Positions 2,343 through 36,069 of a stretch of DNA of 36,069 nt are shown here, in pieces; positions within the stretch are counted from its first letter, which is position 1; the number at the start of each line of letters is the position of its first letter. A model generated the notes under the pieces. It was not told the origin of the DNA. It did no database searches and saw only the letters and a program-made list of their open reading frames with translations. Source of the stretch: a virus; IMG/VR virus record IMGVR_UViG_3300020156_000458, positions 1-36,069 of that record; one strand, written 5' to 3'. A program made the position numbers and the translations under genes.

Positions 2343-3037
2343 TCCGGCCAGCCATTGGCGATGGAGACAGCGTCAGGGTCTGGGCTGGTCAGCACCTCGT
2401 CCTTCAAGTCGCGAGCGAACTGCATCATGCGCCCGTACCAGTCCCCAACAGCGGCCGACAGAGCCAGCCCAGCGGCCGGTGTCGGCAGGGGGAGGCGCGT
2501 GTTGTCCATCGTGATCCAACCGGTGGAATAGCCTTCAGTCCACGGCACGGTGCCGCTTTGCGCCAGCACCGCCGCAATTGCCATGCCGCCAAGGTCAGCG
2601 CGGCCACGGTCCGACACGTCAATCCGCTTGGTCTGGTACGGAGCGCCTTCGGCCAACCGGCGGTCTCGCTCTGCGTTAATTTCAGCCACCCGCTTGGTGC
2701 GGGCCTCCGCTGCCTGCGCAGTCTCTTCATGGGCGGTCAGAGGCAAAAGCCGATACGCCACCGCGACGGCACCAGCCCCGACGACCCATTCGTCTTGCGG
2801 CAGACGCTCCACCCGCTTGCCGATCCCAGATGGCGGCGTGTCGATCAGCGGCAGCACGCGCCACGATGGGCACATAGCCGCCCAGTCCTCTCTTGTCCAA
2901 TGAACCCACACTTCGCGCGGATGGTTGATTGCGTCGTCTCCATCACCATAAGTGATCGGTTCAGCCGTGTAGTAAGTCGCAATGATACGATTGTCAGCGA
3001 CAATGGCCGCAGGAAGCATTCCCATCTTGTCCCCCAT
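2339..3037 (-). CDS. DUF4376 tail-fibre-associated protein
   Basis: The 232-residue protein ends in a DUF4376-type domain (about residues 105-220): a long charged helix with INAERDRRL, then a YQ-x-KRIDVSDRGRADLGG segment and a hydrophobic end. DUF4376 proteins lie at the distal end of phage tail fibre modules and are thought to be fibre parts or assembly factors. The N-terminal half, with DNRIIATYYT and a Trp-rich stretch, is less familiar. The start at 3037 shares one base with the stop of the upstream gene (TAATG). A second ATG four codons later is possible. Confidence 0.75.
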   Translation of the reverse strand: MGDKMGMLPAAIVADNRIIATYYTAEPITYGDGDDAINHPREVWVHWTREDWAAMCPSWRVLPLIDTPPSGIGKRVERLPQDEWVVGAGAVAVAYRLLPLTAHEETAQAAEARTKRVAEINAERDRRLAEGAPYQTKRIDVSDRGRADLGGMAIAAVLAQSGTVPWTEGYSTGWITMDNTRLPLPTPAAGLALSAAVGDWYGRMMQFARDLKDEVLTSPDPDAVSIANGWPE

Positions 3038-3930
3038 TATGGCACGGTAAACCGCACACCAGACCCGGTGTAGTCGAAGACATAAACTTGCCCGGTTGGC
3101 GAAATGAGCACACAACGGCCAGGGCCACCGCGCGTGTAACTGGTAGCCGCCGGCGTGGCTGCATTGTTGCCGAAATGCGGGTCTGTGCTGTTTGGCCCGG
3201 TTATGTTGACGGCGTTGCCCAACAGCCCGGAATAGCTCGACCCGCCACCGCCGCCGCTTTGCCCGCCACCAGCCGAGCCGCCGCCACCGCCACCCCAATA
3301 GCCGCCGCCACCGCCGCCGCCGACGCTATCGCCCCATGGCGGGCTCGCACCGCCGTTCGGCCCTTGCCCTGGCTGGCCGGGCGCCTCAGAAGTTCCCCCG
3401 CCAGGGCCAGGGCCGGTTTGCGTGCCGCCCAACCACCCCACGCCCGTCAACCCGCCGGCATCGAAGCCGTTAGGGCCGACGTTGCGGTTTCCCGCACCAC
3501 CGCCACCGCCGGCCACGGCAAGAAGCACACTGTTCAGGTAGAGCGACGTTCTCGCCCCACCGCCGGCGCCAGCAGTCAGAGGCGGGAAGGCGTACCCGCC
3601 GATGCCGCCGCTGCCGCCGTTGGGGTCCGGCGTGGCTCCACCAGCCGACGGGACGTAACCTTGGGTCTCTGCCGCGCCGCCATTGCCGACGTAGATGTCG
3701 AGCACGTCGCCGGATTTGAGCGACACCGTGCCGGATACAAAACCACCCTTACCGCCAGTGGCGAGAACATTGCCGCCCGCCGCCCCCCAAAGCTTGACGG
3801 TCCAAATACCGGAAGACTTCCCAGCACCCATCAGCAATTCATCGAACAGGTTGCAAAGCGTTTGCCTGTCGTCCTGCCACTCCGGCATGCCGGGCAGGAT
3901 CAGCTTTCTGGTGTTCGGACGGATCAGCAT
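3037..3930 (-). CDS. Glycine-rich tail tip adhesin (PF12810-like)
   Basis: The 297-residue protein begins with a short non-repetitive region (1-40), then a WTVKLWGAAGG motif, GGKGGFVSG and a long glycine-rich body (about 140-232) with runs of up to seven Gly. The order GA-GG, GGKGG, VAGGGGG and GGGGGSSYSG matches the glycine-rich domain also found in receptor kinases and in phage adhesins. Polyglycine-sandwich folds of this sort carry variable receptor-binding loops at fibre tips, as in T-even-like gp38. It starts 2 nt after the fibre gene and probably sits on that fibre. Host-receptor binding is inferred. Confidence 0.7.
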   Translation of the reverse strand: MLIRPNTRKLILPGMPEWQDDRQTLCNLFDELLMGAGKSSGIWTVKLWGAAGGNVLATGGKGGFVSGTVSLKSGDVLDIYVGNGGAAETQGYVPSAGGATPDPNGGSGGIGGYAFPPLTAGAGGGARTSLYLNSVLLAVAGGGGGAGNRNVGPNGFDAGGLTGVGWLGGTQTGPGPGGGTSEAPGQPGQGPNGGASPPWGDSVGGGGGGGYWGGGGGGSAGGGQSGGGGGSSYSGLLGNAVNITGPNSTDPHFGNNAATPAATSYTRGGPGRCVLISPTGQVYVFDYTGSGVRFTVP

Positions 3931-3932
3931 GG

Positions 3933-5225
3933 CTAGGAGGCCTGCTTTACAATGGAATAGTAAAACTTTCCGTCCGGGTAGACCTTGCCCGTCGCGAAAT
4001 TGGTCTTACCCGCTGCTGTGTTTGCGGAGGTTCCGCCGATGTTGATGCAGTTGGCGCCAAAGCTCATCGTGCGGCCACCAATGCCATCCTGCGTCCATTT
4101 GATGGTTAGTGAGTGGACGGTATTGCTACCCGCAGCCGGTGGATTGAGCGGATTGGCGATGATCGAATTGGCAGAGATAACGCCGCAGTCGAAATCGATG
4201 CCCGCATCGCAATCGGAGGTGAAGGTATTTCCGACCGCCGCCAGAGATACCAAGCTGGTACGCGGCGGCTTCATGAAGGTCAGCACACCACTGGCCGCGG
4301 TGCGGAACACCTCGACGCCACCGACGACGAAGCCCAGCACACCCGCCGCCGACCGATAGAAGCCGCTCGTTGCCTCGCCAATCCGCAGACCCAGCGTGTC
4401 CTTGTCAACGCCAGCATAGGTTTGCAACCATCCCGTCAAGGTGCCGCCGGCCAGCTTGAGGAAGGTCGCCACCGCGCCGGCCGGCGTCACTGCTTTGTCG
4501 GTTGCCGTCCCTGTTGCGGTCTCGGCATTCGTCGCAGCCGCCATCAGCCCATCCGCGCCGTTGGCTCCATTTGTGCCATTCAGCCCAGCCGGACCGCGGA
4601 TATTGCCCACGGGGGCGCCCCAGGCGCCAGCCACCTTGGCGTAAACGTCGCCATTGGTCGTGTTGAGGTACTGATCACCATCGTTGCCCAGGCCGGCAGC
4701 TGGCGCCCCGGCACCGGACAACCACCGCGTGGTGTCACCGGTCCGAAAAAAGCCCACTGCCACCGGATCAGCAGCGGAAAACCCGCCCGGCCCCGCCATA
4801 TAGCTCACGGGCACCTTGCAGTAGCCTGCGGCGACCGTCACAGCTCCGGTGACGGTGAAGAGTGCCCACTTGGTGGCATCTGTCCGATGCCCGATCCGCA
4901 GCAGCCCCTTGGCCGTCGAAGTGCTGTCGTCGAACAGACCAATGACGGCGGACACATCGGCACCAGCAGCATCGGCAGTGGACACATAGACCTGTGTCGC
5001 AGTCGCTACGGTGGCGGCGTTCACGCGCACCGCGCCGCTGCCAGGATTGGCATCCGCCGTATCGGCATTCCAGACATTGGTAATGGCTGGCACCGCCGCA
5101 CCCAACGCTGCTGCCCGGTTCGTCAGTTCTACCAGGACGTTGTCCCAGAACTGATCCCAGATCGTCGCGTAGGCATAGGGGGCGAAGCTGGCAAAGGTGT
5201 AGGGCACACCGTTGAAGGTCGCCAT
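3933..5225 (-). CDS. Tail fibre protein with collagen-like segment
   Basis: The 430-residue protein has an N-terminal attachment region, a fibre motif GDQYLN-x3-GDVYAK-x3-AW (residues 183-202), a short collagen-like GPAG-LNG-TNG-ANG-ADG stretch (211-226) that implies trimerisation, and a C-terminal beta-rich region. The LKLAGGTLTG segment is a common tail-fibre repeat unit. It would be the side or central fibre that carries the host-binding tip. The start at 5225 is supported by a GGAG element about 11 nt upstream, inside the preceding gene. The adhesin and DUF4376 genes follow directly. Confidence 0.8.
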   Translation of the reverse strand: MATFNGVPYTFASFAPYAYATIWDQFWDNVLVELTNRAAALGAAVPAITNVWNADTADANPGSGAVRVNAATVATATQVYVSTADAAGADVSAVIGLFDDSTSTAKGLLRIGHRTDATKWALFTVTGAVTVAAGYCKVPVSYMAGPGGFSAADPVAVGFFRTGDTTRWLSGAGAPAAGLGNDGDQYLNTTNGDVYAKVAGAWGAPVGNIRGPAGLNGTNGANGADGLMAAATNAETATGTATDKAVTPAGAVATFLKLAGGTLTGWLQTYAGVDKDTLGLRIGEATSGFYRSAAGVLGFVVGGVEVFRTAASGVLTFMKPPRTSLVSLAAVGNTFTSDCDAGIDFDCGVISANSIIANPLNPPAAGSNTVHSLTIKWTQDGIGGRTMSFGANCINIGGTSANTAAGKTNFATGKVYPDGKFYYSIVKQAS

Positions 5226-27072: not shown

Positions 27073-27338
27073 GCGGCGGCCCTCGTTCGGTCTTGGTCGA
27101 ATGTCACCGCAAGCTGTTCAGCGGCAGCCACCTGCCGGGCGATGCCGGCGGCGAAGGTCTCGGAGTCGGCGATCAGCACGACCAACAGGTCGAAGGCATC
27201 CGACCACAGGGCGGCGCAGTCGCGACGGCGCTCACGGTGCCCCAGCAGCCGGCGACACCAGCAGTAGACGTCGGGCGCACGGCGTGCGGTCGTGCTCATG
27301 TAGCGGAAGGCCAGCAGGCGCGCGGCGGCGTCATCCAT
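27069..27338 (-). CDS. Small unknown protein between primase and methyltransferase
   Basis: The 89-residue protein is mostly helical, with a CWCRRLLGHRERRRDCA stretch in the middle and a Leu/Ile-rich helix (AFDLLVVLIAD) after it. I do not recognise a family. The Met at 27338 overlaps the primase stop by 8 nt; an earlier Met four codons upstream also exists. Its stop overlaps the methyltransferase start, so the three genes are translated together. The two Cys pairs could bind a metal but the spacing is not a standard zinc motif. Confidence 0.55.
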   Translation of the reverse strand: MDDAAARLLAFRYMSTTARRAPDVYCWCRRLLGHRERRRDCAALWSDAFDLLVVLIADSETFAAGIARQVAAAEQLAVTFDQDRTRAAA

Positions 27339-29043
27339 GGCCGCCCCCATTCCGCGCCCGGCGGGGAGGGAAGCGCACCGTCACCCGGCCATCACCGCCC
27401 AGCGCCCGCGCCACCCGGCCGCGCAGCTCGTCCGACGCGGCGTCCGCGCCGATCACGATCACGTCCCGCACCGTCTCCGGCAGCGCCAGATGCAGCAGCG
27501 CCGACACCGGCCCGCCGATCCACACCGGCACGCCCGGATAGGCGTTGCGGGTCTGAAGCCCGATCACGGCCCCAGTGGTCAGGTGCAGCCGCTCGCCCGA
27601 GACCTTGCCCAGGCGCACCGCCGCGCCCTGCCAAGCGCCGATCAGGCGGCGGGACGGCAGCACCTCCCCTGTGCTGGGATCGGCGATGGTCGCCATCCGG
27701 CCATCCGGCGACAGAAGGGTCGCCAGCACGGCGCGCACCTCCGGCTTGCCGTCCCGGTCAGGCCACCGCGCCATGCCGGCCAGCAGAGCGGGCCACCGGC
27801 CGATGCACACCGGCTCCGCCCCGTCCGGGCCATGCAGGTATTCCACCTCTCCGAAGCCGAACCACGGGCCAGCGGTCGCCGGGTCCACGCCGCTGGCAGC
27901 GAGGAAGGTGGTGGCGGGCGTATCGGTCAGCGATGCGGCGCGGGCATTCCACACCGCCCGGCCGGCGGCCATCTGCACGCCCAGGGCAGCCGGAGACGGG
28001 GCGCCGCCACGGTGCCGGCGCTGGGGCTGATAGCGCCGCTGTTGCCGCTCCGGGCGTTCTGGCACGTCGCGCGGGTGGTTCCGTCCGGCCGCAATGCCGC
28101 CGTCGATGATCTTTTCCAGATGCGCCGGGTCCCACCCGCCTTTGCGCGGGTCGATGCTCCATTGCAGAGCTGCCGCCATCAAATGCTGGCGCACCAAGTC
28201 TTCCGGTAGGGCGTTCGTCGCCACCAGCCCGCCCAGCTTGAAGGCGGCTTCGTTCAGCGCGTTGTTCTGGTTGCCCGGCCCGGTCTGGCGGACGGTCTTC
28301 ACCTCGTCATCAAGCGCGGCGCGGGCATAGGCGGAGATGCGTTCGGTCTTGGTCGAAGGGGCACGTGCGGCAGCCTTCGGCACCGGCTGGCCGATGCGCT
28401 TGGCGAGGAAGGCCGGCAACTCGCGCCCATCGAGGCGCAGGCGCAACCAGTCAAGGTCTTCCGGCTCTCCCATCAGCAGCCGGATCACCCATTCCGGGGC
28501 TGGCACGACGGGGGTGGAGTCTGGGCTGCCGATCCAGGCATATCGCCCGCCGTTCGGATGGATCGACGGGGCGGCGAGGATGTACCCGCCGGTCGACCGG
28601 GTGTCAAGACCCGGCCCCAGGCGCGACCGCGCGCTGTTCTTCACCGGGCGGCCCGGCCAGCGGAACAGCCAGTGCCGCCCGCCGCTGGGGGTGTTCTGCC
28701 CCAGCGTCTGCGGCAGCGGCTCCCCGAACAGCTCTTCCAGGATCTGCAACGTCTCGAAGCCGTTCTCCGCCGGCTTGTCGCCCACCGCGTCCTTGATGTC
28801 GGCGTCCATCACCCAGAAGCCGGACTGTTCGCCAGCAGCCAGCCCGACATTTGCCCGCGGCCAACGGGTCCAATACTGTTTCACCCAATAGGGGGAGGTC
28901 TTGGCGTCATTGACGCCATGTTCGAAGAAGTCCTTTTCCTTGTAGGGCAGCTTGTCCCCGGCCACGCACGGGAACACTGCCCAGCCGCGGGCTGCGTAGG
29001 CCGCCGCCGCCTCGAACAGTTCCGGCCCGGCAACTTCGGTCAT
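27331..29043 (-). CDS. Bifunctional prim-pol with C-terminal Toprim-like region
   Basis: The 570-residue protein starts with a prim-pol (AEP) domain: WAVFPC (21-26), the metal-binding MDAD (79-82), SGGRHWLFRW (120-129) and GGYILAAPS (152-160) are the conserved blocks. A helical linker with NNALNEAAFKLGGLVA (260-275) follows. The C-terminal part (about 400-560) resembles the DUF7146/Toprim fold (DGRMATIADPSTG, then GAWQGAAVRLG and VPVWIGG), but the usual EGIETAL glutamate block reads TTGAVIGL, so that half looks catalytically dead. It makes primers for phage replication together with the D5 helicase. It overlaps the next gene by ATGA. Confidence 0.88.
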   Translation of the reverse strand: MTEVAGPELFEAAAAYAARGWAVFPCVAGDKLPYKEKDFFEHGVNDAKTSPYWVKQYWTRWPRANVGLAAGEQSGFWVMDADIKDAVGDKPAENGFETLQILEELFGEPLPQTLGQNTPSGGRHWLFRWPGRPVKNSARSRLGPGLDTRSTGGYILAAPSIHPNGGRYAWIGSPDSTPVVPAPEWVIRLLMGEPEDLDWLRLRLDGRELPAFLAKRIGQPVPKAAARAPSTKTERISAYARAALDDEVKTVRQTGPGNQNNALNEAAFKLGGLVATNALPEDLVRQHLMAAALQWSIDPRKGGWDPAHLEKIIDGGIAAGRNHPRDVPERPERQQRRYQPQRRHRGGAPSPAALGVQMAAGRAVWNARAASLTDTPATTFLAASGVDPATAGPWFGFGEVEYLHGPDGAEPVCIGRWPALLAGMARWPDRDGKPEVRAVLATLLSPDGRMATIADPSTGEVLPSRRLIGAWQGAAVRLGKVSGERLHLTTGAVIGLQTRNAYPGVPVWIGGPVSALLHLALPETVRDVIVIGADAASDELRGRVARALGGDGRVTVRFPPRRARNGGGHG

Positions 29044-29993: not shown

Positions 29994-30262
29994 GCAGGCA
30001 CCTCTTGCGCCGCATGATCCGGCCGGCAGGCTTCCAGATGGCCGGCGAGCGCCGACACCATGCTGTCGGCGTCAGCCCAACCGGACGCCCAGCCCCAGCC
30101 GCTGACGGTGTCGGGCAGATAGGGATTATCGGTCAGGGGACGACCAGAGAGGCAGGCGGCAGAGCCGTCCCCCCAGGCCGTAAGGAACCGCACGTCGGTC
30201 GGATGCTCCATCCTGCCGGACAGCATCATGGCAACGCCCCCGGTGGTCAGCAGCGCGGTCAT
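29990..30262 (-). CDS. RMF-like small protein
   Basis: The 90-residue protein has the pattern of ribosome modulation factor-like proteins: an aromatic AWGDGSAACLSGR, then DNPY (residues 45-48) and a W-rich GWGWASGW block (55-62). In RMF itself the analogous GR, CPY and WLGGW positions bind 16S rRNA and help dimerise ribosomes. Phage-encoded versions are known but their role is unsettled. The ATG at 30262 shares one base with the upstream stop; a GTG one codon earlier is possible. The assignment rests on motif order only and is moderate. Confidence 0.55.
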   Translation of the reverse strand: MTALLTTGGVAMMLSGRMEHPTDVRFLTAWGDGSAACLSGRPLTDNPYLPDTVSGWGWASGWADADSMVSALAGHLEACRPDHAAQEVPA

Positions 30263-30756
30263 CACGCCACCTCTACGGCACGGGGGCCAGCCGGAATGGA
30301 GGCGGTCACGTCCCTCTCCAGGGCGTCGAGCACCCCGCGCAAGACGGCCAGCTCGCGCAGCACCTCGCGGCCTTCTTCCGCCGTGATCTGCCTGCCGCCG
30401 TCACTCTTGGGGCAGCGGGCCTGCCGGACGGCTTCGGCCACGTCGCCCAGCTCCACCATGGCTTCGGCAAGCCGCGCCATCGGGTCGCCCGGCACCGCGG
30501 CACCATCGGCCGAACGGCGCAGCTCCGCCTTATAGGCGGTCAGGATCGGCGGGGCCTCGCCACGGCCAATCATGGCACGATCCAGGCGCAATGCCTGGAA
30601 CAGGGGAATGCGGTGCGCGTCGTCGTCGGGGTCCGACCACATGCGAACGAGGCGCGCGCTCTTGCTGGTAACGGCCTCGACCTGGGCGTCACCCAGAGAG
30701 GCATGGACGAGAAACACCGCGTCCTCTAGGGACAGCGGATCACGGCGCTTGGTCAT
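30262..30756 (-). CDS. CII-like phage regulator
   Basis: The 164-residue protein has a helix-turn-helix region in its first half (about 10-80): LEDAVFLVHASLGDAQVEAVTS, then RLVRMWSDPDDDAHRIPLFQALRLDRAMI, which matches CII-like and related alphaproteobacterial phage regulators where a W-SDP motif follows the recognition helix. A helical C-terminus with LREL-x-LLRGVLDAL-like repeats may mediate oligomerisation. It is the second gene of the leftward early operon. A role in the lysis/lysogeny decision or in late gene control is inferred. Confidence 0.65.
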   Translation of the reverse strand: MTKRRDPLSLEDAVFLVHASLGDAQVEAVTSKSARLVRMWSDPDDDAHRIPLFQALRLDRAMIGRGEAPPILTAYKAELRRSADGAAVPGDPMARLAEAMVELGDVAEAVRQARCPKSDGGRQITAEEGREVLRELAVLRGVLDALERDVTASIPAGPRAVEVA

Positions 30757-30792: not shown

Positions 30793-31134
30793 TTAGTTCG
30801 CGCGTTCATACTGCGGTTCTGTCGACAGCTGCTCTCCACCCAGGACAGGGGCGGCGCAACGCGGCGCAAGTCGCCGTGTTCGCAGCAGCTTCGAGACGAA
30901 GCGTCGTCGCGAATGGGAGCCGTGGTGATGCGAGGCGATAGCGTCGGTTGGAGCAGCGGCGGCCATGTAAGCTTCAGCGCGCTCAATCACGGTCAGGGTG
31001 ATGCCTGCACCTTCGGTGAGACGCTTCACAAACTTGTGGTCGCCTACGGCATCGAGTCCGAAGCGGGCTGCGGTGAGTCCGTGCAGACGCAAAAACGCCT
31101 GAACACGAACCAATATGTGCTGTCGCGTATGCAT
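30793..31134 (-). CDS. Cro-position small DNA-binding protein
   Basis: This 113-residue protein is transcribed divergently from cI and begins just left of the operators. Residues 1-58 carry a compact helical region with FLRLHGLTAARFGLDAVGDHKFVKRLTEGAGITLTV, a type common in alphaproteobacterial phages and seen as a Cro-like HTH. The rest is Arg/His-rich and low in structure. Its place at the start of the leftward early operon facing the repressor suggests the Cro role. A weak GGGA element precedes the ATG at 31134. The C-terminal part could be untranslated sequence if an earlier stop were missed, but the frame is open. Confidence 0.6.
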   Translation of the reverse strand: MHTRQHILVRVQAFLRLHGLTAARFGLDAVGDHKFVKRLTEGAGITLTVIERAEAYMAAAAPTDAIASHHHGSHSRRRFVSKLLRTRRLAPRCAAPVLGGEQLSTEPQYERAN

Positions 31135-31148
31135 GGTCCCGGATGTTC

Positions 31149-31186
31149 GGATAAATTTACCCCTTTTGGCAAGGGTAAATTTATCC
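31149..31186. promoter_or_regulatory. Operator pair in cI-cro intergenic region
   Basis: Two 14-bp sites face each other: GGATAAATTTACCC (31149-31162) and GGGTAAATTTATCC (31173-31186). With one flanking base they form a perfect 15-bp inverted repeat around a 10-bp centre. Each site is itself a near-palindrome of GGGTAnnnnTACCC. The pair lies between the divergent cI and cro-position genes and almost certainly controls both. Confidence 0.85.
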
Positions 31187-31207
31187 GTTCGGGTATCGAG
31201 GATGCTC

Positions 31208-31221
31208 GGGTAAGTTTCCCC
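31208..31221. promoter_or_regulatory. Third operator-like site next to cI start
   Basis: GGGTAAGTTTCCCC matches GGGTAnnnnTACCC with one mismatch and ends 1 nt before the cI ATG. A bound repressor here would block its own gene. A lone GGGTA half-site is at 31191-31195. Confidence 0.6.
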
Positions 31222-31222
31222 A

Positions 31223-31945
31223 ATGGCTAAGAATCAGGTTAGACCTTCCGAGACACCCATTGGCCGCGAAATTAGGCGCCGAATGGATATCTTTGGCTGG
31301 AGTATCGCAGAGTTAGAGCGCCGGGCCGAGTTGAGTGAAGGCGGCGCTAAGAACATTATTTACGGAAAGTCTAAGAACCCCCGCGCAGATACGTTAAAGA
31401 AGATTGCAAAAGCGCTGGGCTGCACGACTAATGACTTATCTCGCGATGATATCGGCGAGGACACTATTGCTAATACTCCAGATGTTCCTGCGGATGTATT
31501 TGGCGGGTCGAGCGACCACATCTTAAACGGCGGGATGCCCATTACTGAACTTGATGTTCGGGCTGGAGCTGGCCCAGGAACTCTAACCGAGGAAAATACT
31601 GCGACGCACACATGGCGTGTGCCCACGGAAGTAATTCGCGGGTACACGTCTGCTCCATCTGAAGAACTCAAGATCATTACGGTTTATGGTGACTCAATGG
31701 AGCCAACCTTGATGCCAGGGCAGCGCATCATGGTTGACATCGCTGACAGAACACCGTCACCACCAGGGCTATTTGTTGTTTGGGACGGTCTTGGCCTTGT
31801 GGTGAAGCGGCTGCAGGTTATCCCTCACAGCGATCCCGTTTGCGTCCGCATTTCCTCGGACAATCCCCGATACGAACCTTATGAACGCACGCTAGAGGAA
31901 GCTCATATCCAGGGACGTGTCATTGGTGGCTGGCGTTGGATGTAG
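31223..31945 (+). CDS. CI-type repressor, XRE HTH plus S24 peptidase
   Basis: The 240-residue protein has an N-terminal XRE helix-turn-helix (about 14-72) and a C-terminal LexA/S24 domain (about 108-240). The nucleophile Ser158 (GDSMEPTL) and Lys195 (LVVKR) of the self-cleavage dyad are in place, and an Ala-Gly site lies at 114-117, so RecA-dependent cleavage and prophage induction are expected. No ribosome site precedes the ATG; the third operator lies there instead, so translation may be leaderless or use an alternative start. Base composition is lower in GC than in the structural genes. It should keep both early promoters shut in the lysogen. Confidence 0.93.
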   Translation: MAKNQVRPSETPIGREIRRRMDIFGWSIAELERRAELSEGGAKNIIYGKSKNPRADTLKKIAKALGCTTNDLSRDDIGEDTIANTPDVPADVFGGSSDHILNGGMPITELDVRAGAGPGTLTEENTATHTWRVPTEVIRGYTSAPSEELKIITVYGDSMEPTLMPGQRIMVDIADRTPSPPGLFVVWDGLGLVVKRLQVIPHSDPVCVRISSDNPRYEPYERTLEEAHIQGRVIGGWRWM

Positions 31946-31981
31946 TGTGTTCACCGGTAGAGTTGATGGTTTTGAAGGGGC

Positions 31982-32009
31982 GTGGAGAGTCAGATAATGG
32001 ATTCTCCAC
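31982..32009. terminator. Possible two-way terminator between cI and cargo gene
   Basis: GTGGAGAGTC (31982-31991) and GATTCTCCAC (32000-32009) pair with one wobble pair and an 8-nt loop. The sequence on either side is AT-rich but has no long T run. It lies between two genes that point at each other, so it may end both transcripts. Confidence 0.5.
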
Positions 32010-32023
32010 ACCCAGATTTAAAT

Positions 32024-33013
32024 TTAAGCTTTAGACACTCCGACGATTTCTGCAACTTTATCCACAAAACACACCGTTCCATCGTCGATGGAATACCGTA
32101 GTAATCGGATTCCTAGTTGATGCAGAACCTCGCGGTCTAACGGTGTGGGGTCGCCGGGTAATACAACAACGAGGACGCCAGGACTGCTAAGTAGGGCTTT
32201 GTAGAAAAATAATTGTCCAATAGCAGTGTATATCGAATATGGCGTTACCTCCGTTTTCACTTCAAACAAACCAATCGCTTTTCCCTCGTCTCCGTAAAAG
32301 AGGTCAGGCCCACGCCGCATCTGGCGTTCATCAGATGGGGAAAGGCCTATTATTGTTAGCTCCTCCGCTAGAGCATTAACAACAACATCGTGAACTGGAT
32401 CGACAGTTCTAGGATCTCTCGCCGGAATTTCATATCTCTTCGGCAATTTGGCTTGAAACAAACTGTGGTTTGTTTTTCCCTCTGCACCCGCTTCAATGTC
32501 TTCCCAATAACGCCTTACGCGGGCGCAAGCTTTAATATAGTCTTCTATATCATCAAGAAAGTTTTCATCATCTAAGCATGCAACTTTGTAGTATTCTCTC
32601 GAAACTTTGCTGCTAAGCTGGACATTTTCTCTCTTTGTCCCAAGGTCAAATGCCCTATCGAACATATCTGTTTTGATCGCCTTAGGTTTAGCTTTTAGGT
32701 ACCCCCAGTGCAGTAACCAGCGTTTAGCGCCATCCTGAACAAGCTGGCCCGTAAAACCTTCGCGAGTCCCAGAAAATGGCATATTGATCTGAACAACACG
32801 TTTAGTAGGCTCATTACCGCGTAGGAGACCGAACTCAAACCAGTGCTTTTCACCATTCTTGTCTGCCCAATAGTCCATCCAGATTCCACGATCTGGTACC
32901 CCAAAACGCCCGCTGCGGCCAAAGCGGAATGCACTTGGAGCGGTGCGGAAAAGGGATTTCAGATCATCAGCGGCCTTAATCAGGCTTCTTTCTGCGCTCA
33001 CGGGCTTCAACAT
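32024..33013 (-). CDS. PD-(D/E)XK nuclease-like cargo protein, possible defence gene
   Basis: The 329-residue protein has a C-terminal region with the PD-(D/E)XK pattern: an upstream helix (HDVVVNALAEELT, 208-220), GPDLFYGD with Asp237, IGLFEVK with Glu251 and Lys253, and a helix with AIGQLFFYKAL (264-274). The N-terminal half (about 25-110) is aromatic and beta-rich and may be a sensor or target domain. It lies between cI and the rightward promoter, is AT-richer than the phage around it, and points opposite to cI. This is the layout of a lysogenic conversion (moron) gene, often superinfection or plasmid defence. No exact family is recognised; activity is inferred. Confidence 0.65.
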   Translation of the reverse strand: MLKPVSAERSLIKAADDLKSLFRTAPSAFRFGRSGRFGVPDRGIWMDYWADKNGEKHWFEFGLLRGNEPTKRVVQINMPFSGTREGFTGQLVQDGAKRWLLHWGYLKAKPKAIKTDMFDRAFDLGTKRENVQLSSKVSREYYKVACLDDENFLDDIEDYIKACARVRRYWEDIEAGAEGKTNHSLFQAKLPKRYEIPARDPRTVDPVHDVVVNALAEELTIIGLSPSDERQMRRGPDLFYGDEGKAIGLFEVKTEVTPYSIYTAIGQLFFYKALLSSPGVLVVVLPGDPTPLDREVLHQLGIRLLRYSIDDGTVCFVDKVAEIVGVSKA

Positions 33014-33184
33014 GCTGCATTTACCTATTCTGAGTTGCTATTAACGAGATAGGTACACATTAATTTGCTTTCTCTTGTCCGTCTACTCCAACGATGTAAT
33101 CCGTTGGCTCGCACGATCTGTGCGTGCTGTAGCGGTCTGATAGGCTCAAGCCTTATATCTCGAACACACGAGCTGGCAAAAATT
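33014..33184. other. Intergenic region upstream of cargo gene
   Basis: This AT-richer stretch lies between the cargo gene start (33013) and the operator-controlled rightward promoter. It holds small imperfect palindromes such as GCAC/GTGC around 33111-33123. It should contain the leftward promoter of the cargo gene, but no box stands out. No gene is visible. Confidence 0.4.
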
Positions 33185-33236
33185 GGGTATAGATACCCCA
33201 ATCACGCTTGACAGGGTATATTTACCCGAATTAGAC
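33185..33236 (+). promoter_or_regulatory. Repressor-controlled rightward promoter with two operators
   Basis: GGGTATAGATACCC (33185-33198) and GGGTATATTTACCC (33214-33227) repeat the cI operator pattern. A perfect -35 box TTGACA (33208-33213) lies just before the second site, and the site fills the 17-bp spacer up to TTAGAC (33231-33236), a weak -10. Repressor bound here would exclude RNA polymerase. The promoter points at the small genes and the integrase. Confidence 0.8.
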
Positions 33237-33309
33237 CTTGCTTGGTCGCTCGGCTTAGCCCCGATGCGTATCGGCTCTGAGACCACTCATAGATATCAGG
33301 ACATTCAGC

Positions 33310-33519
33310 ATGAAGCACCGCCGTATAATGCGCAGCCCTTCCGCCCTACATGCCACCGCCCGCGCCATGGGCCGCAAGATTGCCGACCTGGGCGGCTCCG
33401 GCGACGCGGTGACGGAAGCCGACCTGCTGACCGACTTCAGCGCCGCCGACATCGCCGCCCATGCCGAAGCCGCCCGCGGCTACGCGCGGTCAATACTGGG
33501 CAGTCGCTCCGTCGCCTGA
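33310..33519 (+). CDS. Conserved small phage protein, first gene of rightward operon
   Basis: The 69-residue protein has a helical core with MGRKIADLGGSGDAVTEADLLTDFSAADIAAHAEAARGYAR. Proteins of this shape (EADLL then FSAADI and a run of A/R helices) are found near repressor regions in alphaproteobacterial prophages; no function is known to me. It is the first gene after the operator-controlled promoter, so it is made on induction. A GGA element about 10 nt before the ATG is weak. Confidence 0.6.
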   Translation: MKHRRIMRSPSALHATARAMGRKIADLGGSGDAVTEADLLTDFSAADIAAHAEAARGYARSILGSRSVA

Positions 33520-34756: not shown

Positions 34757-35008
34757 ATGACCGCCGCCAAAGCACGCCCTTCCGAGTTGCCCGGCTGGCC
34801 GCGCCTGCTGTCGCGCGAGTTGGCAGCGGCCTACATCGGCCAGTCGCCGAACGTGCTGGACCGGCTGGGCATCACCTTTCACAGGATCGGCTCCCGGCGG
34901 ATGTACGACCGGACCGATCTGGACCGCTGGGTGGACGATTTGGCGGGCCACCGGCAGGATGGAGCACCTCAATCCTGGACGGAGCGAATTTCCCAATGCG
35001 GAACGTGA
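34757..35008 (+). CDS. Excisionase-like helix-turn-helix protein
   Basis: The 83-residue protein has a MerR/HTH_17-type winged helix (about 17-62): LLSRELAAAYIGQSPNVLDRLG, then HRIGSRRMYDRTDLDRWVDDL. Such small proteins next to integrase act as excisionases or directionality factors. The start at 34757 lies 4 nt after the preceding stop, and its end overlaps the integrase start by 13 nt. Together with the repressor-controlled promoter upstream this gives a clear excision module. Confidence 0.75.
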   Translation: MTAAKARPSELPGWPRLLSRELAAAYIGQSPNVLDRLGITFHRIGSRRMYDRTDLDRWVDDLAGHRQDGAPQSWTERISQCGT

Positions 35009-36069
35009 AGCGGGTCACCGCCAAGGGGCGGGCCTACTACTATCACCGGGGCACCGGCATGCGCCTGCCGGGCGAACCCGGTAGTGCTGAGTTCGAAGCC
35101 GAATACCGGCGGCTGGAAGGCATCGCCGTCGAGAACAGCGACGCGGCTGCCCCGGTGGTCTGCAAGACGCTAGGCGCGCTGCTGATCGCCTATCGGGGCA
35201 GCCCGACCTTTGCCGAGAAAGCCGATTCAACCAAGGCCGACTATCACGAAGCGATGGATTGGTTGAAGCCGCTGCACGACATGCCGTTGGACCGGATTGA
35301 CACCCCGACCATGACCCGGCTGCGCGATCAGGCGTACAAGACGCGCAAGCGGTGGTTCGCGAACCACCTGCTGCGCTTCATGTCGGCACTGTTCAACTGG
35401 GGCCGCCCCTACGGCTACATGGACGCGAACCCCTGCGAGAAGGTTCCGAAGATCCGAAAGCCGCGCGGTGAACGCGTGGTCAACCGCCCGTGGACCGACG
35501 AAGAGTTCGCCAGGGTTATGGCAGCGATGCCGCCGGAGCTGCGCGTCGCTGTGGCGCTGGGTGCACATGCCGGCCTGCGCGAGGGCGACGCCATCCGCTT
35601 GACGTGGTCAGCCTACCGTGGCGGCGTGATCGAGTCGCGACAGGCGAAGACCGACGACCCGATCTGGGTGCCGGTGCATTCGGAGCTGAAGACGATCCTC
35701 GACGAAGCACGCGCCCGCCTGCCGGCTCTGTCGGCGAAGCTGGCGGCGAAGAACCGCCCGGTGCCCATGACCATCGTCGTCGGACAACGCGGCGAGCCGT
35801 TCACGGAATCTGGCTTCCGTGCCCGGTTCTTTAAGGTGATTCGGCAGCTGGTGGCTGAAGGCAAGGTCCAGCCCGGCCTGACCTTCCACGGCCTGCGGCA
35901 CACGGCTGCCACAAAGCTCGCGGATGCCGGCTGCGACACCCGCGACATCATGGCGATCACGGGGCACAAGACCGAAGCGATGGTCGCCCGATACACCCGG
36001 TCGGCAGACCAGAAGCGGCGCGCGACTGCGGCGATCATGAAGCTGGAAGGGGTGGGGAGGAAGGCGTGA
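34996..36069 (+). CDS. int: Tyrosine recombinase integrase
   Basis: The 357-residue protein has an N-terminal arm-binding region, a core-binding helical domain (about 55-150) and a catalytic domain with the full set: Arg195 (GLREGD), Lys218 (AKTDD), HGLRH with His298 and Arg301, His324 (GHKT) and the nucleophile Tyr333 (ARYTR). It inserts and excises the prophage at att. GGAG about 10 nt before the ATG supports the start. Its stop is the last codon of the window, so the att site expected just beyond int is not visible. Confidence 0.95.
   Translation: MRNVKRVTAKGRAYYYHRGTGMRLPGEPGSAEFEAEYRRLEGIAVENSDAAAPVVCKTLGALLIAYRGSPTFAEKADSTKADYHEAMDWLKPLHDMPLDRIDTPTMTRLRDQAYKTRKRWFANHLLRFMSALFNWGRPYGYMDANPCEKVPKIRKPRGERVVNRPWTDEEFARVMAAMPPELRVAVALGAHAGLREGDAIRLTWSAYRGGVIESRQAKTDDPIWVPVHSELKTILDEARARLPALSAKLAAKNRPVPMTIVVGQRGEPFTESGFRARFFKVIRQLVAEGKVQPGLTFHGLRHTAATKLADAGCDTRDIMAITGHKTEAMVARYTRSADQKRRATAAIMKLEGVGRKA

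Follow-up and report, generated by a model that had tools for sequence, protein, structure and literature searches.

Shared putative operator sites at two distant predicted early promoters flanking a CI-like repressor gene in a viral record and in alphaproteobacterial relatives

Can a single repressor hold two distant early operons of one phage in check? This question is raised by the IMG/VR virus record IMGVR_UViG_3300020156_000458, of which positions 1 to 36,069 were analyzed as one stretch of DNA (36,069 nucleotides, hereafter the window). The window carries a gene for a CI-like repressor (cI), and copies of one operator-like palindrome are located both immediately upstream of this gene and about 2 kb away, with a single gene of low G+C content (the cargo gene) lying between cI and the distant copies. 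We consider it very probable, judging from the DNA and its relatives, that this region represents the lambda-type immunity region of a temperate phage or prophage, with two clusters of sites resembling the right (OR) and left (OL) operators of lambda.

Operator clusters and promoters in the window

Five copies of a 14-bp dyad, GGGTAnnnnTACCC, were found in two clusters. Three OR-type sites, O1 (GGATAAATTTACCC, 31149..31162), O2 (GGGTAAATTTATCC, 31173..31186) and O3 (GGGTAAGTTTCCCC, 31208..31221), sit between cI and a divergent cro-like gene, with a spacing of 24 bp from O1 to O2 and of 35 bp from O2 to O3. An outer and an inner OL-type site (GGGTATAGATACCC, 33185..33198, and GGGTATATTTACCC, 33214..33227) form a remote pair, 29 bp apart and 2 kb off; no third operator was found in this remote cluster, which consists of two sites. 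An earlier note on this DNA had read the same 14-bp palindrome at these five positions. This is exact for the remote pair, both members of which match the dyad at 10/10 arm bases, and has to be relaxed for O1, O2 and O3, each of which carries one arm mismatch (9/10).

Between positions 31000 and 33400, 1000 dinucleotide shuffles averaged 0.041 sites at 9/10 arm bases or better, and no shuffle reached the five that were observed; the two sites at 10/10 compare with a shuffle mean of 0.001. Over the whole 36-kb record, seven sites of at least 9/10 were present versus a mean of 0.27 (60 shuffles). When two mismatches were allowed, enrichment across the window was not strong (13 sites versus 7.2 expected), so the signal is carried by clustering and by the high-scoring sites. 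Sites at 3584 and 4118 were rejected as operators and taken as chance matches because they are inside long minus-strand open reading frames (ORFs; 3037-3930 and 3933-5225).

Each cluster overlaps the -35 element of one of two divergent putative early promoters. In the near cluster, a putative minus-strand -35, TTGCCA (31167..31172), stands between O2 and O1, 4 nucleotides before O1, and is found at the homologous position in most relatives; it would belong to a leftward early promoter comparable to the right promoter (PR) of lambda. O1 therefore fills the -35/-10 spacer of this promoter, and O2 is immediately upstream of its -35. In the remote cluster, the plus-strand -35 TTGACA (33208..33213) belongs to a rightward promoter resembling the left promoter (PL) of lambda. 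The inner remote site had been described as filling the spacer between TTGACA and the presumed -10, and the -35 end of this description is borne out, with the operator beginning at 33214 directly after TTGACA. The -10 end is less secure, the best candidate being the weak TAGACC (33232..33237, plus strand, spacer 18), which matches 3/6 positions.

The cI gene (31223..31945, plus strand) encodes a protein of 240 amino acids with a Cro/C1-type helix-turn-helix (HTH) and a peptidase S24 domain (HTH_26, 1.8e-9; HTH_3, 3.5e-7; Peptidase_S24, 5.3e-12), in which residues A94-G95 and S158 are conserved in the family alignment. No sequence match was obtained among solved structures at E<=1e-3. O3 ends 1 nucleotide short of the cI ATG, and a transcript beginning at or close to this codon could not accommodate a ribosome-binding site, so the cI message is probably leaderless. 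The lambda cI message is leaderless.

Near and remote operators in relatives

Two scans for the motif provided related loci. In viral contigs, 30 loci contained two exact copies of the motif at a distance of 5-35 bp, and eight of these (L006, L007, L012, L013, L014, L023, L031 and L033) have a CI homologue whose gene is preceded by the motif and followed by a pair with a spacing of 28-30 bp. A genome scan for motif pairs with 12-18 bp between sites gave 40 stretches, mostly tandem repeats in unrelated bacteria; the two-cluster layout with a CI homologue was present in L042, L057, L061, L063, L068, L074 and L075, and the sites of L042, L061 and L074 are identical to those of L006, L031 and L012, respectively. 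In these motif-found sets the pair itself was selected for and is therefore no evidence; selection did not extend to the position of cI, to the near sites or to the TTGAC between sites. L068 is on a contig titled Nocardioides marinus that bears an alphaproteobacterial-type CI switch; the genome was drawn in a Rhodobacterales-order sample, and its label may be wrong.

Relatives were also chosen by the CI protein alone. When a profile of 13 CI proteins (from the window and motif-found loci) was applied to 196 genomes from the order to which Salipiger bermudensis (G001) belongs, 29 matches were obtained in 24 of them. G001 and G006 were already known from the motif scan, and the other 27 matches comprised 15 higher-scoring loci (L110-L124, taken over a long range) and 12 lower-scoring ones. 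Exactly one downstream remote pair, with sites 28-30 bp apart and arms matching the locus's own cI-proximal palindrome at 8/10 or more, was detected in 12 of the 15 higher-scoring loci; 60 shuffles of the downstream DNA of each locus produced a pair of this kind 0-2 times. At a threshold of at least 9/10, 8 of the 15 keep the remote pair; in L118 and L124 the second site is weaker and was found only at the looser threshold. A motif-free search reaching 4.5 kb downstream missed the pairs of L110 and L126, and a longer range found both.

Further examination of these loci revealed a common scaffold. TTGAC precedes the inner remote site by 0-3 nucleotides in 25 of 26 loci (counting 13 motif-found loci and the window), the exception being L123 with TTTACA as its -35. 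Where a third near site is present, the near spacings of relatives are about 24 + 34-36 bp, and L126 has the same arrangement of O3, a single A and the ATG as the window. In addition, an integrase gene was detected in 17 of 30 loci searched; in 16 of them it is beyond the remote pair and reads in the direction of the promoter, and in L126 it is on the other strand.

The operators of these loci differ in sequence. Within the GGGTA..TACCC class, L110 and L111 have GGGTT at the near site. GGGAT or GGGAC..(A/G)TCCC is found in L112, L113, L114 and L116, GGGGA..TCCCC in L115, CGGT..ACCG in L118, GGGGG..CCCCC-like sites in L119, L120 and L123, and GGGAA..TTCCC-like sites in L124. The palindrome upstream of cI was taken as the near operator and the site after the -35 as the remote one (chosen by match in L123); the window and L116, which resembles L112, were left out. 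In the resulting 11 loci, near and remote operators of the same locus agree at 98 of 110 arm bases versus a permuted mean of 76.6, and 2 of 200,000 permutations reach 98. In Mantel comparisons of 26 loci, similarity between operators was correlated with similarity between CI DNA-binding domains (r=0.25, a value reached in 102 of 5000 permutations; partial r=0.31) and not with that between the C-terminal domains (r=-0.07). One protein reading both clusters would be the simplest cause of this concerted change. The relatives selected by CI thus support the proposal, made in the earlier note, of a single repressor at both clusters: the remote pair matches the near operator of its own locus, and both change together.

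Several observations weigh against this reading or narrow its range. No pair was detected in 3 of the 15 higher-scoring loci, of which L121 and L122 lack operators and L117 ends 3.9 kb downstream; among the 12 lower-scoring loci, for which only 1.7-2.2 kb downstream is visible, two (L101 and L107) have a pair. The -10 elements are weak, as with TAGACC (3/6) in the window, and the Mantel signal is modest, with phylogeny not fully removed from it. Finally, the CI protein of the window is 18-22% identical to the other CI proteins in the comparison profile, and in 0 of 20 loci of its best relatives does operator-like sequence pass the paired test.

These best relatives of the window's CI reach 48-50% identity, and matches occur in 53 of 385 class-wide genomes. 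Among the 20 loci, L155 shows a two-cluster layout by eye, with AGGAA..TTCCT-like sites of its own; pairs in L150, L152 and L159 were set aside as GC-rich chance pairs, L148 has 0.9 kb downstream, and L153 is mis-anchored. In the nearest relatives, L147 and L148, the spacer of a TTGAC promoter contains a near operator that differs in sequence, and no remote pair was seen; loss or gain of the remote cluster may thus have occurred in the course of the wider CI family's evolution. Because most of the best relatives have no remote pair, the two-cluster layout is a trait of part of this wider family and not a rule. Close relatives of the phage itself were not found: no relative of the CI or cargo protein was detected in viral contigs, an integrase search gave one weak locus, and near-identity DNA searches yielded no phage match and a single plasmid match of 201 bp; the comparison was therefore made within the wider family.

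Genes under the two clusters and possible modes of repression

The near cluster faces a leftward operon. Its first gene, divergent from cI, is the cro-like gene (30793..31134, minus strand, 113 amino acids), the first ~65 residues of whose product align with small genes at the equivalent place in relatives. The protein is 34% identical to its L112 counterpart and matches phrog_7669 (unknown function, E=4e-4); no Pfam HTH family matched it, and its assignment as Cro, made from position and slight similarity, is a weak one. The next gene (30262..30756, minus strand) has weak CII-like similarity (Phage_CP76, E=0.011; phrog_101, CII-like, E=0.0065; phrog_38866, E=7e-13), and the operon also contains a Prim-Pol replication primase gene (27331..29043, minus strand; PF09250, E=3.8e-38). 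Behind the PL-like promoter, the first gene (33310..33519, plus strand, 69 amino acids) has no Pfam or PHROG match, and no N-type antiterminator was recognized there; N proteins are hard to recognize. This rightward operon includes a small HTH gene that is weakly excisionase-like (34757..35008, plus strand, scanned from 34754; HTH_17, E=0.016; phrog_25900, E=6.5e-7; phrog_66, excisionase, E=0.015) and ends with a tyrosine integrase gene (34996..36069, plus strand; PF00589, E=2.6e-19). Replication genes and excision genes had been suggested to be held by the same repressor, and the division of the operons agrees with this, since the near cluster faces the Prim-Pol operon and the remote one the operon of the excisionase-like gene and integrase.

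We infer that CI represses transcription at both clusters, regulates its own gene and is released by the SOS response. CI would bind the GGGTAnnnnTACCC dyad at both places. When bound to O1 and O2, it would block the leftward promoter of the cro-like, CII-like and Prim-Pol genes; from O2 it could stimulate the cI promoter, and at high concentrations of CI, occupation of O3 would silence cI. In lambda, the corresponding operators assist and limit cI transcription likewise. As the inner remote site fills the spacer of the TTGACA promoter, CI would also block the rightward operon that ends in the excisionase-like and integrase genes. Self-cleavage of CI would then free both operons together, and the cargo gene would sit outside both of these lytic operons.

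Given this co-regulation, looping of the DNA through two pairs of CI over 2.0 kb is plausible, and we regard it as an evenly balanced prospect. The steady presence of the remote pair in relatives fits such a loop. Alternatively, CI may bind the clusters separately, with the remote sites serving as a cooperative pair on their own promoter. The stretch separating cI from the remote pair varies between next to nothing and several kb in relatives (the pair being about 0.67 to 6.9 kb from the start of cI), which speaks for separate binding in that no fixed loop length is kept. However, in the loci of the CI-selected set that have it, the remote site is a pair, just as an octamer loop between two operator pairs needs. 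According to the available part of PMC8053113, the repressors of lambda, HK022 and phiKO2 loop between such clusters in vivo, three of three tested lambdoid repressors having done so with their natural spacings, about 0.6 to 2.3 kb, and for lambda CI, loops longer than 2 kb were observed when both ends carried an operator pair, with two tetramer-bound sites. Binding without a loop appears to us a serious possibility, if a somewhat doubtful one.

It is quite unlikely that the Cro-like protein or a host regulator is what chiefly binds the shared motif, with CI acting elsewhere. The Cro-like protein has no structural assignment here, which leaves room for this explanation, and in lambda, Cro and CI share operators, so an added role of Cro at the same sites is likely. 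However, the operators track the DNA-binding domain of CI (a correlation run on the CI proteins), and they differ between phages within one bacterial order, which argues against a host regulator. Still harder to credit is the idea that the remote pair represents a replication iteron or a chance recurrence. It draws on the 22 of 30 viral-scan loci in which GGGTAnnnnTACCC pairs are accompanied by no CI homologue or by one several kb away, as are most non-Rhodobacterales matches of the genome scan, but it is opposed by the position of the pair behind cI, the spacing of 28-31 bp, the adjoining TTGAC and the concerted change with the near sites.

Known phages, the interval between the clusters and further copies of the motif

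The arrangement in which CI would act at both clusters has much in common with that of lambda: the gene for an HTH-S24 repressor is enclosed by two operator clusters, the early operons diverge, the OR-type operators are three in number, a second cluster is placed at the other early promoter, and the interval carries one or more accessory genes (rexAB in lambda). The distance between clusters is also similar, about 2 kb in the window versus 2.3 kb in lambda (PMC8053113, available part). Unlike lambda, the window has a 14-bp GGGTA dyad, 35 bp between O2 and O3 and two remote sites 29 bp apart; its cargo gene is convergent with cI and not co-transcribed with it, and its rightward operon consists of unknown genes, the excisionase-like gene and the integrase, with no N gene recognized. 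In HK022 and in phiKO2/N15, the repressor gene is likewise located between OL and OR, with distances of about 700 and 630 bp, respectively, between the operators (same source), but these are enterobacterial phages with other operators and repressors.

A closer parallel was found in RcapNL (Capnelvirus, JQ066768), a temperate phage of Rhodobacter capsulatus. Its CI-like repressor is 29.8% identical, and its sequence contains the O1-O2 and O2-O3 spacings of 24 and 35 bp, O3 followed by a single A and the ATG, and, in the space separating RcapNL_00048 from RcapNL_00047, a remote pair with a spacing of 29 bp. It differs in its operator core (GGGGA..TCCCC), its remote -35 (TTGCAA) and the presence of two small genes in the interval. 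A word search did not find 'operator' in the available text of PMC8601537, a paper on R. capsulatus phages. No description of an alphaproteobacterial OR/OL family was found in the searched literature on repressors and operators of Rhodobacterales or other alphaproteobacterial temperate phages and on lambdoid looping and immunity regions, which included the available part of PMC9122126 and covered few subscription journals. The two-cluster layout as such is already known, and the alphaproteobacterial family appears to be undescribed in this literature.

On balance, we lean toward the view that these loci belong to a widespread family of alphaproteobacterial temperate phages, undescribed in the literature searched, with a fixed scaffold (OR spacings of 24 + 35 bp and an OL pair 28-31 bp apart around TTGAC). 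On this scaffold, the arms of the operators would have changed more than once, each time at both clusters, and the interval would be a slot for exchangeable defence genes. The family would then offer a natural series of matched repressor-operator specificities with which to address both the splitting of immunity groups and the question of whether operators are retained as pairs for octamer looping. The lambda-like layout very probably also runs the switch in alphaproteobacterial phages. Because the two distant clusters have shifted together in each matched set, the origin of new immunity groups could be tested by exchanging CI proteins between natural variants, as could the need for paired remote operators.

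With regard to the interval itself, in the window it has 47% G+C versus 67% downstream and contains one minus-strand gene. This is the cargo gene (32024..33013, minus strand, 329 amino acids), which does lie between the operator clusters, as the earlier note had placed it. Its product had no match in Pfam, PHROG, PADLOC or NCBIfam. A GPDL..FEVK..AIGQL pattern is common in part with two distant relatives, in whose alignment E251, K253 and the IGQL stretch are invariant and the D is not aligned as invariant. The structure model is of low confidence (mean predicted local distance difference test score, 54), and the PDB entries that match it best belong to EndoMS-type nucleases (E=4e-3 to 1e-2). 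The cargo gene therefore encodes a probable PD-(D/E)XK-type nuclease and is a candidate phage-carried defence gene.

In relatives, 10 of 25 ORFs of at least 110 amino acids in the interval were scanned with PADLOC, and 7 of the 10 proteins match its models at E<=1e-3 (one only at 1.4e-4). The matches include PD-Lambda-5 A and B (L109), SIR2-type proteins (L110 and L111), DUF3800/PDC-M04A (L112), an ankyrin protein (L110) and a weak restriction-type match (HSDR_N) in L007; the proteins of L113, L114 and L126 have no PADLOC match. This suggests that the interval of relatives holds exchangeable genes and acts as a defence-gene slot in this phage family. According to the available part of PMC8585504, citing Degnan et al. 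2007, the cI-n interval of lambdoid phages is a hotspot for accessory genes (rexAB, bstA), often related to defence. The present interval resembles it in having variable, often defence-related genes beside the repressor gene, but differs in that the cargo gene of the window is on the strand opposite to cI. Defence genes carried by phages may thus be sought between the two clusters, and the probable nuclease of the window is a possible example.

Further copies of the motif were observed in other settings. Four perfect GGGTAnnnnTACCC sites are located within 232 bp of Haemophilus haemolyticus (L065, 4967-5198), a locus in which no CI homologue of the family was found. In the viral contigs L011 (9800-9876) and L030 (437-513), also without a CI homologue of the window's family, the motif forms four-copy arrays with alternating 19/25 bp spacing that look iteron-like. 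Moreover, the unrelated viral contigs L005, L020, L032 and L034 contain GGGTAnnnnTACCC pairs 22 bp apart, which are probably the sites of another regulator.

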